The position numbers and the translations under genes were made by a program. The notes under the pieces were generated by a model. The model did not search any database. It saw only the letters and a program-made list of their open reading frames with translations, and was not told the origin of the DNA. Positions 46,296-53,392 of a stretch of DNA of 64,000 nt are shown piece after piece. This DNA comes from a virus: positions 1-64,000 of the IMG/VR virus record IMGVR_UViG_3300002143_000235; one strand, written 5' to 3'. How positions within the stretch are numbered: the stretch's first letter is position 1; every line of letters begins with the position of its first letter.

Positions 46296-46551
46296 TTGTT
46301 CTTAATTTATTTGGAGTGAAGTTACCTTGTTCATCAATAATGTTCCACATAGAATTCACCCAGCGTATATATAATCGTTGTGAAATTGTAGATTCTTCGG
46401 CTTTTCGATATCCACTACACCAGTTTTTGTACTTCATCACTAAAACATGTACTTTTGCATCATGGTATGGATTATCTGAAAAATGCACACCCTGACTGAA
46501 AGCTTGAAATCCCTCTGCCTCACCACCATGTAACTGTAAATAATAACTCAT
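46288..46551 (-). CDS. Small hypothetical protein (87 aa)
   Basis: Unrecognised. Starts overlap on both sides, in an operon with the HD hydrolase. Confidence 0.5.
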   Translation of the reverse strand: MSYYLQLHGGEAEGFQAFSQGVHFSDNPYHDAKVHVLVMKYKNWCSGYRKAEESTISQRLYIRWVNSMWNIIDEQGNFTPNKLRTNV

Positions 46552-47153
46552 CCTTTTAATTGTGTTAGTTCAGCATAGCGTTGTTCTTTAACAGCATCCC
46601 ATTTTGCCTGCATAGAAGCCATGTAAAATTTCATATTATCGTAGAACTTAAACTGTTCATCAATAAAAGGTGATAGCTGTTTTCCAAACTCTATTCTAAG
46701 TCCCTGGAAAAGTTTAACAATACTCAAATCCTGGATGAGGTATCCCATATCAGCATCACGAATAATTTTTGCACCGACTGTCAAATTTTCTTCAGATGTA
46801 GTATAAGGGAATTCTGTAACTTTGATTAAATATTCGACCTCTTTAACATTGAACGATGCACCATTTAATATCACATATGTTCTAAGCCCAATAATAGCAT
46901 TATTAATATTTTCACTGTCTTTTAGTTTACCACCACTATGTGCATAATCATGAAATAAAGCTGCAACATAAAGTTCTAATTCATTTACTTTATGTTGTGT
47001 TTCAGACTCATTATTGTAAATCATGTTTGCTGTTTCAAATACAACAAACAAATGATCAATTCCATGATATGGTAGATTATTGGATGGATTATTTAGATTT
47101 ATGTATCTGATGATTTTTATCAATTCTGGATACCGTTCGTAAATTTGAATCAT
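46548..47153 (-). CDS. HD-domain phosphohydrolase
   Basis: 201 aa. Metal motifs H-G-I-D-H near 29, H-D-Y-A-H near 69 and D-A-D near 134 are complete for the HD fold. Probably hydrolyses a nucleotide or cyclic nucleotide; which one is not readable. Confidence 0.75.
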   Translation of the reverse strand: MIQIYERYPELIKIIRYINLNNPSNNLPYHGIDHLFVVFETANMIYNNESETQHKVNELELYVAALFHDYAHSGGKLKDSENINNAIIGLRTYVILNGASFNVKEVEYLIKVTEFPYTTSEENLTVGAKIIRDADMGYLIQDLSIVKLFQGLRIEFGKQLSPFIDEQFKFYDNMKFYMASMQAKWDAVKEQRYAELTQLKG

Positions 47154-47183: not shown

Positions 47184-47645
47184 TTAAGATTCTCTACGTC
47201 TTTCTCGTTCTAAGTCTTTTTCTTTTAAACTAGCTCTTTTATCGTATAATTTTTTACCTGTAACGACAGCTATCTCAAGTTTCCACTTACCATCTTGATT
47301 ATAAAAAAGTTTTGATGGAACAACTGTATGACCTTTAATTTCCAAGCGCTCACGGATTTTGTTAAGTTCTTTTTTGTTCAGTAGTAATCGTCTATTCTGC
47401 GCTTCTTTATCTGTTACATTTTTATTCTGAACCATATGATTTTTCATTGGTGTGATTTTAGAATTATGTAAAACAAAATCATTATCTATAAAAATACAAT
47501 AAGCAGCATCTAGTATACATCCATTAGTTTTTAAGGATGCAACCTCCCATCCTTCTAACATAACACCAGCAGTAAATTTATCGTGTACTGTATAAAGAAA
47601 ATTTAATTTTTTAAATGTATAACTGCGCTGTTTCATATAATTCAT
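47184..47645 (-). CDS. smpB: SmpB (tmRNA-binding protein) homologue
   Basis: 153 aa (150 from the ATG at 47636). Aligns along its length with bacterial SmpB: G-W-E-V-x-S-L near 32, I-T-P-M near 65, R-R-L-L-L-N-K-K-E-L near 86, and G-K-K-L-Y-D-K-R-x-x-L-K-E near 130, followed by a short basic tail. SmpB delivers tmRNA to stalled ribosomes and its tail enters the mRNA channel. No tmRNA was found in the window. The start overlaps the HNH gene. Confidence 0.88.
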   Translation of the reverse strand: MNYMKQRSYTFKKLNFLYTVHDKFTAGVMLEGWEVASLKTNGCILDAAYCIFIDNDFVLHNSKITPMKNHMVQNKNVTDKEAQNRRLLLNKKELNKIRERLEIKGHTVVPSKLFYNQDGKWKLEIAVVTGKKLYDKRASLKEKDLERERRRES

Positions 47646-48477
47646 ATTTTTTTAATAATTCAACAAGTTTTGGTTGATTCAAATCAATTGAAATAACATC
47701 ATTTTTTACTGGATTTATTCCACGTGTAACAATTTTTATGAGATTTGGTTTCCACCAATCTGGAAGAAATTTAGGTTTTCCATATTTAATAAAATGTAAC
47801 TTCCAAATAACAATCATATTTTCTACACCCAAATAATTTATAACTTGTTCTATTGGATCAGGAAAAAGTATAGATTCCATTCCACGTTGTAGTTCAGCAT
47901 CAGTAAAATTCCATCTATCACGAATACCATCAATTCTCATTTGCATATAAACTTGTATCGATGGTGGAATTTGATGTTTATGATTTATTAAAGCATTTAC
48001 ATATTTAGTAATTTCTCTCCACTCTCGATACTTATCACTATTACGTCGAAAATCAAAATCAGCATAAAGAATATGTTTAAATAATGTTGCATGTTGCTCG
48101 TAATCATTATGCGCTTCACGTGTAAGCAATAATAAATCCATTGAATTTTTATCCTTGTACGCATTAGGAAACAATTTTCTAAATTGTGTAGGAACAACAT
48201 GATGTTTAGTTAAATTATTTGACTCACCTGTTATAACACAAATATTTTCTCTATTACCAAGTATTACATTTGGATCACCATATCCACGTGGTTCAAATGT
48301 CAATCCAAACGATTTAGGACCGATTTGTTCAGCTAAACCACGTTGTAAATACCAATTTGCACGTTTAGCTGAACAGAAACACATAAGTGTACCATCAGGA
48401 TGAAAAAGACTATAATTTTCATATGGTGCTGATTCAAGGCAATGCATAGAATTTGAATTTATTGTTGTTGTTTTCAT
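47611..48477 (-). CDS. HNH-type nuclease-like protein (288 aa)
   Basis: The N-terminal ~75 residues form a domain with F-H-P-D-G-T-L-M-C and a Cys-x5-Ala pattern. Residues ~78-125 resemble HNH nucleases (C-V-I-T-G, T-K-H-H-V-V-P, L-T-R-E-A-H-N-D-Y-E). The C-terminal ~150 residues are unrecognised. May be a free-standing endonuclease. Confidence 0.65.
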   Translation of the reverse strand: MKTTTINSNSMHCLESAPYENYSLFHPDGTLMCFCSAKRANWYLQRGLAEQIGPKSFGLTFEPRGYGDPNVILGNRENICVITGESNNLTKHHVVPTQFRKLFPNAYKDKNSMDLLLLTREAHNDYEQHATLFKHILYADFDFRRNSDKYREWREITKYVNALINHKHQIPPSIQVYMQMRIDGIRDRWNFTDAELQRGMESILFPDPIEQVINYLGVENMIVIWKLHFIKYGKPKFLPDWWKPNLIKIVTRGINPVKNDVISIDLNQPKLVELLKKYELYETAQLYI

Positions 48478-48538: not shown

Positions 48539-49093
48539 TTAAAAACGATCAATGTACTTGCGGAAGATCTTTGCAATATTAATAGCATCATCAATTCCCC
48601 TGTGTGGTGTTCCATCAAATGTTAACTTTTCAAACATGATTGCGCCACCAAGACCCATTCCTTTTTTAAGCTTATTCCACTCAGCATGAAGATGTTTCAA
48701 ACTACGATGATTATCCTCTGTGATGAAGTCCACATCCATTTTGTTCAATTTTAAATCATCACGCAATTGATTACGATCGTAATGACCCCAACTCACAAAC
48801 ATAGCATCGCCTGCCCATTCAAAGAAATCATTTAAAACCTCTTCAGCTGGTTCTGCATTGTCTACATCTGACTGTACTATTGTCGTCAGACTTGTACAGA
48901 AATTGGAGATGTGTTTGAATTTCTTTGGTTTCAGAAAGTGTGAGAACACATCGATCTGATTTCCGTCCTGGTCAAGTTTTACAGCGCCAATTTCGATGAT
49001 TTCGTTCTGAAATCCTACTGGTTTTTTTTCACTTGTATTTTCTCGATCATAGCATGTAGCTTCTAAATCGACTATCACGTATATTTTTTGCAT
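48539..49093 (-). CDS. DEDD 3'-5' exonuclease (DnaQ/ERI1-like)
   Basis: 184 aa. Exo I D-L-E-A-T near residue 9, Exo II near 95 (S-W-G-H-Y-D) and Exo III with R-G-I-D-D-A near 165; E-I-I-E-I-G-A-V is typical of the RNaseT/DnaQ/ERI1 group. The H-R-G-I-D-D spacing marks the DEDDh type. Substrate (RNA or DNA) unclear. Confidence 0.85.
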   Translation of the reverse strand: MQKIYVIVDLEATCYDRENTSEKKPVGFQNEIIEIGAVKLDQDGNQIDVFSHFLKPKKFKHISNFCTSLTTIVQSDVDNAEPAEEVLNDFFEWAGDAMFVSWGHYDRNQLRDDLKLNKMDVDFITEDNHRSLKHLHAEWNKLKKGMGLGGAIMFEKLTFDGTPHRGIDDAINIAKIFRKYIDRF

Positions 49094-51668: not shown

Positions 51669-51701
51669 AACTTTAATTATCAGTCAATGCCATGATTTTG
51701 T

Positions 51702-51787
51702 TATCCAGGTAGGGCTCGAACCTACAGTGGGATTACTCCTCTCTTCCGATTCAAAGTCGGACGTGTTGCCAATTACACCACTGGATA
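51702..51787 (-). tRNA. tRNA-Gln (UUG) with a long variable arm
   Basis: Perfect 7-bp acceptor TATCCAG/CTGGATA; D arm GTG/CAC; anticodon arm TCCGA-CTTTGAA-TCGGA with U33 and anticodon TTG; T arm GTAGG-TTCGAGC-CCTAC. The variable region is ~19 bases with a GGA-GTAA-TCC hairpin, typical of class II tRNAs (Leu/Ser/Tyr) and not Gln. Confidence 0.8.
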
Positions 51788-51841
51788 ATTTAATATTTTT
51801 TATTGTAACACCACGTGATGCCATTTCACTAATCAACAATA

Positions 51842-51872
51842 AAAAAAGCCGTTCAATTTTGAACGGCTTTAG
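51842..51872 (-). terminator. Intrinsic terminator
   Basis: AAAGCCGTTCA-ATTT-TGAACGGCTTT with a T-run on the minus strand, ending the transcript of 51962-52357. Confidence 0.85.
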
Positions 51873-51897
51873 TAAACTTTAAAGAATACAATACCAT

Positions 51898-51951
51898 TCA
51901 ATCCGAAAATTGTTGCTGTTGAAGTTGTTGGTATGTGCTCATTAATGTCAT
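51898..51951 (-). CDS. Tiny Gln-rich ORF (17 aa)
   Basis: MTLMSTYQQLQQQQFSD and stop, between the gene at 51962 and a terminator; purine-rich AAAAGAACGATT upstream. It fits neatly inside the transcript but is too short to be sure. Confidence 0.25.
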   Translation of the reverse strand: MTLMSTYQQLQQQQFSD

Positions 51952-51961
51952 AATCGTTCTT

Positions 51962-52357
51962 TTAAAAATTATTCTTGTTATTAAATAGCTGATAGTCATA
52001 TGACAAGAATGCATATGTCTTTGCTTTATTATAAATACTAATCCTAGTATCATTTACTTCTTCAATTGTTGGTGATTCTGATAACAGATATCTACTTACC
52101 CAATCTGCTATTGGAATTGCCTGAATATTAAATTGTGCCACACTCCATTCCTGTCTTGTGTAAACTATAGGTGCATCATCCAATCTTCCTTCAAAAAGCA
52201 TGAAAAACTGTCGGTAATCGAAAGAATTATCATACGATGCTGGAAGCGGTGGATTTGAACTAATTTCAGGATAAAAAGTTTTTGAAGTCAAAATCTTTAT
52301 AATCTGTTGTTTATCAGCCAATGTTGCGCCGGTAATTTTAAAATATCTACTAGCCAT
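51962..52357 (-). CDS. Hypothetical protein (131 aa)
   Basis: Unrecognised, alpha/beta, with F-D-Y-R-Q-F-F and a D-W-V-S-R-Y segment. TATATAAC lies upstream on the minus strand. Confidence 0.5.
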   Translation of the reverse strand: MASRYFKITGATLADKQQIIKILTSKTFYPEISSNPPLPASYDNSFDYRQFFMLFEGRLDDAPIVYTRQEWSVAQFNIQAIPIADWVSRYLLSESPTIEEVNDTRISIYNKAKTYAFLSYDYQLFNNKNNF

Positions 52358-52404
52358 CTGTGTTTTTTATTTATTGTTATATATTCATCGTCACAAATGA
52401 TTAA

Positions 52405-52797
52405 TTAAACACTATTACGTTTATCAAATAATTTCTGATTGTGTATTCGTTTTTTCTTATCAATTCTGTTTTGAAAATCTAGTAACAATGGTTCAGGAAT
52501 CTTGATGTTACGTGTAGTAAACTCTTTCAAGATTTCCTCTTCAGTAAAAGACCAATCTGCAATCCCGTCACTCCATTCATTTACCCATAAACCCCAACTC
52601 TTTTTTCCTGTCAATACACCTGTTAAGATATTTGAGTGTCTTGTAACAGGAATCTTTCCAAGTTGGTATTCACCATTTTCAATTTTTCTAAAACAAAATT
52701 TTCCGTCGTCCTCGTTTGGATCGAACTCTATCTTGACAGCAGAACCACAGAATGTACAAATACCTGATCTGTATATTTGAAGAAAGAAAGTGAACAT
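52405..52797 (-). CDS. Hypothetical zinc-ribbon-like protein (130 aa)
   Basis: One C-T-F-C pair near residue 14 (a second pair is absent), an acidic middle and a basic C terminus (R-I-D-K-K-K-R-I-H-N). Unrecognised; possibly nucleic-acid binding. Precedes the tRNA gap. Confidence 0.45.
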   Translation of the reverse strand: MFTFFLQIYRSGICTFCGSAVKIEFDPNEDDGKFCFRKIENGEYQLGKIPVTRHSNILTGVLTGKKSWGLWVNEWSDGIADWSFTEEEILKEFTTRNIKIPEPLLLDFQNRIDKKKRIHNQKLFDKRNSV

Positions 52798-52898
52798 CTC
52801 ATTGAAACCATCACTGTATTTCTTTAACTTCCTGTGTGTCCTACTGTCGTTTATGCGTCCAGCCTTTTCATCTCTATCATTTTATTTTTAATTTTTGT

Positions 52899-52971
52899 GG
52901 ATGTAAGGTGATTCGAACACCTATCAACATGACCAATACAGCGGTTATTTTACTATTAAAACTATACACCC
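52899..52971 (-). tRNA. tRNA with an irregular anticodon arm (identity unresolved)
   Basis: Acceptor GGGTGTA/TACATCC, D arm GTTT/AAAT and T arm AGGTG-TTCGAAT-CACCT are clear. The best anticodon arm is TAACC-GCTGTATT-GGTCA, with an 8-base loop and one mismatch; the anticodon could be GTA (Tyr) or TGT (Thr). A different fold exposes CAT. Confidence 0.5.
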
Positions 52972-52982
52972 ATTTATAATGT

Positions 52983-53055
52983 GGAGAAGATGAGAATCGA
53001 ACTCACCACAAAAATCTTGCAAGGATTCTTCGCCAGCCTTGGTACATGCTTCCCC
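52983..53055 (-). tRNA. tRNA-Ala (UGC)
   Basis: Acceptor GGGGAAG/CTTCTCC, anticodon arm GAATC-CTTGCAA-GATTT with U33 and anticodon TGC, T arm GTGAG-TTCGATT-CTCAT. The D arm is weak. Confidence 0.65.
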
Positions 53056-53094
53056 AATTTCGGTTTTATTTCACAGACCGAAAACTGTCTCAGT

Positions 53095-53167
53095 GCGAGA
53101 AGTGGGACTCAAACCCACAACTCCTGACTTGGAAGGCCAGTACTCTAATCAATTGAGCTATTCTCGC
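53095..53167 (-). tRNA. tRNA-Gly (UCC)
   Basis: Perfect acceptor GCGAGAA/TTCTCGC, D arm AGCTC/GAG, anticodon arm CTGGC-CTTCCAA-GTCAG with anticodon TCC, T arm GTGGG-TTTGAGT-CCCAC. Confidence 0.9.
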
Positions 53168-53238
53168 AATTTCAATAAACCTCTTTTTGTCTCAATAAAC
53201 TTTAACACTTTATCGTTACAATTTTTACTTTATTGTTG

Positions 53239-53312
53239 TACACCCTGCAGGATTCGAACCTGCGACATCTTCCATGTAAAAGAAGCGCTCTACCAACTGA
53301 GCTAAGGATGCA
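53239..53312 (-). tRNA. tRNA-Val (UAC)
   Basis: Acceptor TGCATCC/GGGTGTA, D arm GCTC/GAGC, anticodon arm CTTCT-TTTACAT-GGAAG with anticodon TAC, T arm GCAGG-TTCGAAT-CCTGC. Confidence 0.88.
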
Positions 53313-53322
53313 TATCTTTTGT

Positions 53323-53392
53323 ACTCTTTGAAGGAATCGAACCTTCTCCCTTAGCATGTCGAGCTAGTATTCTACCGTTAAACCAAAAGAGC
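53323..53392 (-). tRNA. tRNA, anticodon by position GAC (Val?), atypical loop
   Basis: Acceptor GCTCTTT/AAAGAGT and T arm GAAGG-TTCGATT-CCTTC are clear. The anticodon stem is TAGC/GCTA with loop TCGACAT, putting C at the conserved U33 position. Decoding and function are uncertain. Confidence 0.6.

Follow-up and report, generated by a model that had tools for sequence, protein, structure and literature searches.

Why should a phage carry smpB, and what would the protein do there? In trans-translation, alanyl-tmRNA and SmpB together fill the vacant A site when a ribosome has stalled where a broken message ends; the tag is decoded next, after which the ribosome is set free and its product is handed to ClpXP or a similar protease. 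We analysed a window of 64,000 bases (bases 1–64000 of the 313,708-base virus record IMGVR_UViG_3300002143_000235; record coordinates continue those of the window), in which an earlier note had read a full SmpB homologue from the letters. The phage copy could, according to that note, keep translation running when host mRNA is cut, alter tagging, or poison trans-translation. Below, G000 is the window's own phage record, and G010, G012 and similar labels are other viral contigs.

A complete smpB gene in a myophage-like genome

The record contains matches to a portal, a major head protein, a head-maturation protease, a tail sheath and a baseplate wedge protein. These virion-gene matches indicate that it is a myophage-like virus and no bacterial contig. 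The smpB ORF lies on the minus strand, about which the earlier note was silent, in the following surroundings:

46548..47153, minus strand: HD-like ORF directly downstream of smpB (G012 counterpart, 46% identity)
47184..47645, minus strand: smpB, 153 aa, start at 47645 and stop at 47184
47611..48477, minus strand: HNH-like ORF directly upstream of smpB (G012 counterpart, 48% identity)
48539..49093, minus strand: RNase_T / DnaQ-like exonuclease (Pfam RNase_T, 4e-22; G012 counterpart, 54% identity)

The first codons of smpB overlap the 3′ end of the HNH-like ORF, and Met4 is an alternative start. The 153-aa product scores 128.4 bits against Pfam PF01668 (E 2.5e-37, cut-off 27), 129.5 bits against the equivalog TIGR00086 (above its cut-off of 119.1) and 129.6 bits against PRK05422 (slightly below its cut-off of 130). 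Its top PDB sequence match is the Thermotoga SmpB 7ljp (5e-22). The AlphaFold2 model, with 35 phage SmpBs as input alignment, has a pLDDT of 79.9 and shows a beta-barrel with a C-terminal helix or helical tail; all of its 20 best PDB fold matches are SmpB (E 1.6e-10 to 9e-4). The complete ORF, the family scores and the fold thus agree with the homology first proposed. The G-W-E-V, L-L-L-N and G-K-K-x-x-D-K-R blocks cited for it are all found, and alignments show that the tmRNA- and ribosome-contacting motifs GxEVxS, LLLN and GKKxxDKR are kept. The tail extends 16 residues past DKR, and in the PDB-search alignment the protein ends some five residues before E. coli SmpB does. Relative to the E. 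coli protein, His136 is replaced by Tyr and Trp147 by Leu (E. coli numbering). The central loop exceeds that of the nine other aligned phage SmpBs by three residues or more. In a tree, the SmpBs of the window phage and G012 form a long-branched, phage-only pair (support 100), the deep placement of which is weak (long branch, low inner supports); the best-scoring bacterial SmpBs are mainly from Bacteroidota.

The neighbours of smpB had been described as HNH, exonuclease and HD genes that may cut nucleic acids. The exonuclease holds up, the HD-like ORF falls just under the Pfam HD cut-off (20.7 bits versus 22), and the HNH-like ORF carries an HNH-like stretch, TKHHVVP, with no match at E 0.01 in a Pfam search. 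The order exonuclease, HNH-like, smpB, HD-like and GIY-YIG-like is kept in G012 at 46–58% identity; the functional tie suggested between these genes and smpB is thus supported as synteny only. A more telling neighbour is found elsewhere in the genome, where clpP lies immediately upstream of ssrA. The window also contains five tRNA genes at 51700–53392 (minus strand; Gln, Gly, two Val and one more), the fifth of which, at 52898–52971, was detected by Rfam only, and more tRNA groups lie at ~150 kb and ~282 kb of the phage record.

A phage tmRNA with a 35-residue tag

A genome search for a phage tmRNA, one of the checks proposed for the smpB reading, succeeded. The RNA gene and its surroundings are:

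140864–141493, plus strand: clpP from ATG, outside the window (GTG start possible 30 b upstream)
141585–141966, plus strand: ssrA, outside the window in the same record (Rfam RF00023)
141676–141783, plus strand: tag frame including stop, 35 aa
~141971–141997, plus strand: terminator-like hairpin and T run, GGCTTCAA-ATTC-TTGAAGCC, directly 3′ of ssrA

This locus, 94 kb from smpB, scores 87.1 bits against RF00023 (gathering cut-off 47). Its acceptor stem, GGGGGUG/CACCUCC, pairs at 7/7 bp, the third pair being G:U, that is, G3:U70, the pair that sets alanine identity. The T-arm pairs at 5/5 bp, the conserved CAUGUAG segment is found, the first pseudoknot has a stem GGUGA/UCACC (by eye), and the predicted fold beats shuffles (z –3.7). 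ARAGORN reported no tmRNA either in the window or at the tmRNA locus. Other tmRNA-model matches in this record, W06 and W07 were rejected as tmRNAs, being short and far under the cut-off; many of these short matches overlap or adjoin tRNA genes. Upstream of the RNA, GTTCTTTGATTTAT, ending at the tmRNA 5′ end, is common to G012 (L164) and G017 (L168); its less well kept counterpart in G000 (L002), just upstream of ssrA, is GTTCATTGACTTCT, and TATATTTG occurs further upstream of ssrA in G012 and G017. GTTCTTTGATTTAT and TATATTTG resemble the Bacteroidota boxA and promoter, which hints at a Bacteroidota host.

The tag frame begins at nt 92 of the tmRNA, its first codon GCA following AAUAAAC, and encodes ANTKNSAAFAQIAADLGANAVTTVNDTADIVEFAA, 35 residues ending in EFAA. 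The commonest tag length among 97,179 tmRNAs in a database is 10 aa (PMC11915505). Comparison with relatives argues that the long tag is real: the G010 tag, ANTKNSAFSKIAEALAPSSFSNEVISTEDNVLMAA, has the identical start nucleotide and 35-aa length (the G010 ClpP is 70% identical), and the G000–G010 tag alignment was matched by 0 of 1000 shuffles. Moreover, tag-frame differences in huge phages number 26/17/51 at codon positions 1/2/3 (p 5e-5; five pairwise comparisons, two of them sharing G035), and this third-position excess indicates that the amino-acid sequence of phage tags is under selection. The G012 tag has 38 aa (ANFKNETSFNKLVSDLGGSVEVSSTAVVTETAFELATA), and tags elsewhere in huge phages have 20–35 aa (median of long tags 26 aa), with families of equal length in G016/G017 (26 aa), G006/G028 (22 aa), G034/G035/G039 (26 aa) and G055/G056 (21 aa). 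The tag of the 735-kb phage LR756501, GDYKMNAEDMMSIPTSLTGKVATESFVEDLVLA, has 33 aa; in Lak phages and G025 the tag has the usual 10 aa. Most long-tag tmRNAs were missed or shortened by ARAGORN.

The majority of phage tags are still Ala-terminated, and the mostly retained Ala-Ala ends suggest that the tags are still Clp degrons. As candidate reasons for the 35-aa length we consider a longer free tail to engage the protease, an adaptor site within the ANTKN segment (the E. coli SspB adaptor site is AANDENY) and evasion of host adaptors. Mycobacteriophage Bxz1 is an older phage that carries a long tag.

clpP directly precedes ssrA

The clpP stop lies 91 b from the ssrA start, on the same strand. 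The product has a CLP_protease domain (233 bits, Pfam) with the triad Ser113, His138 and Asp188, and the Ser-His-Asp columns are invariant across five phage ClpPs. The clpP–ssrA order is found in G000 and four more phage species (G010/G011, G012, G016 and G017; gaps of 48–101 b), the G016 and G017 ClpPs being 34–35% identical to that of G000; by position alone, the chance of such adjacency is ~2e-4 to 2.5e-3 per genome. The two genes are not necessarily cotranscribed, since those of G017 are separated by a terminator-like hairpin. Nor is the linkage general among viruses: a tmRNA stood beside clpP in only 4 of 80 viral ClpP loci, all four from the G000/G010/G012 lineage, in a stringent structural scan that missed 8 of 19 known tmRNAs used as positives.

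No TIGR00382 (ClpX) match was found in the phage record, which may be incomplete, and none of the Walker-A ORFs listed for it resembles ClpX; with no ClpX match, the idea that this phage encodes a complete ClpXP was rejected. A role of the phage ClpP as head protease is unlikely because a match to a distinct head-maturation protease occurs in the capsid block at 94971–97364 and an additional weak ClpP-family match lies at 262449; running counter to this rejection, PHROGs classes ClpP-like proteins mostly as head maturation. A metallopeptidase-like ORF with weak M20/M28/M42 similarity, under Pfam cut-offs, occurs near ssrA in G016 (L165), G017 (L168), G023 (L169), G006 (L057) and G028/G029, and perhaps degrades peptides from Clp.

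Proposed function of the phage pair

Both dedicated components of the rescue step, SmpB and tmRNA, are present and intact by sequence. We consider it likely that together they perform functional trans-translation and deliver tagged products to Clp proteolysis. Ribosome rescue by the pair is well supported by the sequences of both partners; we infer the routing of tagged products to the phage's own ClpP, as we do binding, charging, tagging, degradation and timing. SmpB and the phage tmRNA would act on ribosomes stalled on truncated mRNA, where the tmRNA reading frame would be swapped in as template. The charged Ala and the 35-residue tag with its EFAA end would be added to the product, and the ribosome would be freed at the stop codon of the tag. 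A host unfoldase, for example ClpX, would then most likely unfold the tagged product, and degradation would fall to ClpP, for which the phage carries a gene of its own beside ssrA. The ribosome, EF-Tu, alanyl-tRNA synthetase and unfoldase would be supplied by the host. The gain for the phage would be that ribosomes and amino acids are kept available while host or phage mRNA breaks down. The phage thus probably runs its own version of stalled-ribosome clean-up during infection. The absence of a ClpX match in the record, the 94-kb gap and the SmpB tail shorter by about five residues weigh against this reading, as do the phages in which only one of the two partners was detected and the hairpin between clpP and ssrA in G017.

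More tentatively, some huge phages may maintain a separate line, in which a protease with phage ClpP as a component reads the long phage-specific tag in preference to others; broken products would then be recycled under phage control, apart from the host's own tag.

The pair could also serve a takeover, in which it outcompetes the host pair and its tag is read poorly or differently by host proteases or adaptors, so that phage proteins are spared or substrates are redirected to a phage-controlled protease. The tags, unlike bacterial ones and two to four times longer, and the adjacency of clpP and ssrA in five phage species are in keeping with this, but the mostly retained Ala-Ala ends point to tags that are apparently still Clp degrons, and Lak phages and G025 have the same genes with ordinary 10-aa tags. 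We regard a takeover as possible but unlikely.

Distribution of smpB and ssrA in large viral records

A tmRNA was found in 23 of 33 SmpB-bearing viral records of ≥100 kb (15 standard and 6 permuted above the cut-off, two below it), a count that includes many near-copies and fragments and is descriptive, not a test. We tested the association in 27 large viral contigs picked for a ClpP gene alone: a tmRNA is present in 9 of 10 contigs with smpB versus 6 of 17 without (Fisher test, p 0.014; p 0.004 after merging three near-copies), one of the nine tmRNAs being under the Rfam cut-off. Of the phages with a proteobacterial-type SmpB, 6 of 7 have a permuted tmRNA, versus 0 of 12 others (p 3e-4), which suggests that SmpB and tmRNA are matched sets, though a common host lineage could also explain it. 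Some phages have a tmRNA with no SmpB detected and others smpB with no tmRNA found (e.g. G044); host and phage parts may hence be interchangeable.

Gene spacing varies: smpB lies within ~1 kb of ssrA in G025 (L162) and G028 (L166) versus 94 kb in the window phage. Permuted two-piece tmRNAs are seen in the huge-phage contigs L174, L175, L178, L180 and L382–L388, certain of them with long tags, e.g. GKNNNFSVNFGPVAQTAAPKAMMAAA. The two sub-cut-off tmRNAs among the 33 records adjoin a group I intron. In LR756501 (L054 1272–1844) and viral contig G031 (L173 1318–1923), such an intron is located at the 3′ end of a sub-cut-off tmRNA match, as if the tmRNA were interrupted in the T-loop region; group I introns are known in bacterial tmRNAs (PMC11915505). 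A GOLLD RNA is present in the 634,780-b phage LR745206 (L050 2540–2945; Rfam RF02032, 287 bits).

The tRNA-like domain of tmRNA is conserved and is what SmpB proteins generally bind, so the phage protein may accept host tmRNA through it. That it chiefly serves host tmRNA, boosting or modifying host trans-translation with the phage tmRNA secondary, would fit the 94 kb between the two genes and the smpB genes of G044 and some other records in which no tmRNA was found. Co-occurrence of smpB and ssrA and the matched sets suggested by permuted tmRNAs speak against it, and we rate it somewhat less probable than a takeover.

It is improbable that SmpB acts as an inhibitor, tying up host tmRNA or blocking the decoding site. 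The somewhat short tail without Trp147 would allow it, and mycobacteriophage DS6A provides a precedent for phage interference, as a tRNA-like-domain-only RNA of its kind inhibits tmRNA (PMC4131195); against this, the tmRNA-binding and DKR tail motifs are kept, and the genome encodes a cognate tmRNA of full length whose tag is under selection. Of the three possibilities raised at the outset, continued translation and altered tagging fit that full-length tmRNA and its unusual 35-aa tag, and poisoning is disfavoured because SmpB is complete, the tRNA-like domain of the tmRNA is intact and the tag frame is under selection.

Least credible is that smpB is a bacterial gene at a prophage edge or on a mis-assembled bacterial stretch: many small smpB phage records look like this (in Klebsiella, Escherichia and Staphylococcus records smpB is often at the record end), but virion genes in the same record, conserved neighbours in the second viral contig G012 and the phage-only SmpB pair already contradict it unless the whole record is chimaeric.

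Relation to known systems and significance

The window phage resembles the bacterial ssrA/smpB system in SmpB fold and motifs and in a one-piece tmRNA with a G3:U70 acceptor stem, T-arm, resume codon and Ala-ending tag. It differs in that both genes are phage-borne and 94 kb apart, the tag has 35 aa versus ~10 (PMC11915505), and clpP directly precedes ssrA. A 2014 search found a handful of phages with ssrA and no phage SmpB; smpB was found on bacterial chromosomes only, save one plasmid and some organelle-targeted nuclear copies (PMC4131195). Mycobacteriophages such as Bxz1, Bacillus phage G and methylophage Melnitz likewise carry ssrA (PMC4131195, PMC9004378) but, unlike the window phage, have no reported SmpB. 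Prevotella Lak phages (MK250015–MK250029) and the 636-kb phage LR756504 are closer, with tmRNA, SmpB and ClpP in one genome. Unlike the window phage, they also have ClpX (as two same-frame pieces in Lak-A2 and Lak-C1), their clpP is not beside ssrA, and the Lak tag has 10 aa (DDEIDFRMAA).

The same two genes have been listed among huge-phage translation genes and ascribed to ribosome rescue (Al-Shayeb et al. 2020, PMC7162821); that paper leaves Clp and proteases unmentioned and, in the passages found, tag length and pairing undiscussed. The presence of tmRNA and SmpB in huge phages was thus already known, and the long selected tags and the clpP–ssrA linkage appear to be new; in the literature, of which coverage was incomplete, we found no paper that describes such linkage or treats long phage tags as a class. 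The 2020 survey called tmRNAs with ARAGORN (PMC7162821), which misses the tmRNA of the window phage and misses or truncates most long-tag tmRNAs, and it may therefore have undercounted them. More generally, phage tmRNAs are probably under-counted, since the long selected tags of many huge phages are mostly overlooked or shortened by this program.

The tag features needed for recognition by Clp protease become directly testable. Cleavage of mRNA and tRNA is a common anti-phage defence, and it strands ribosomes on broken messages. With SmpB, tmRNA and a protease subunit of its own, a phage could keep ribosomes active despite such cleavage.
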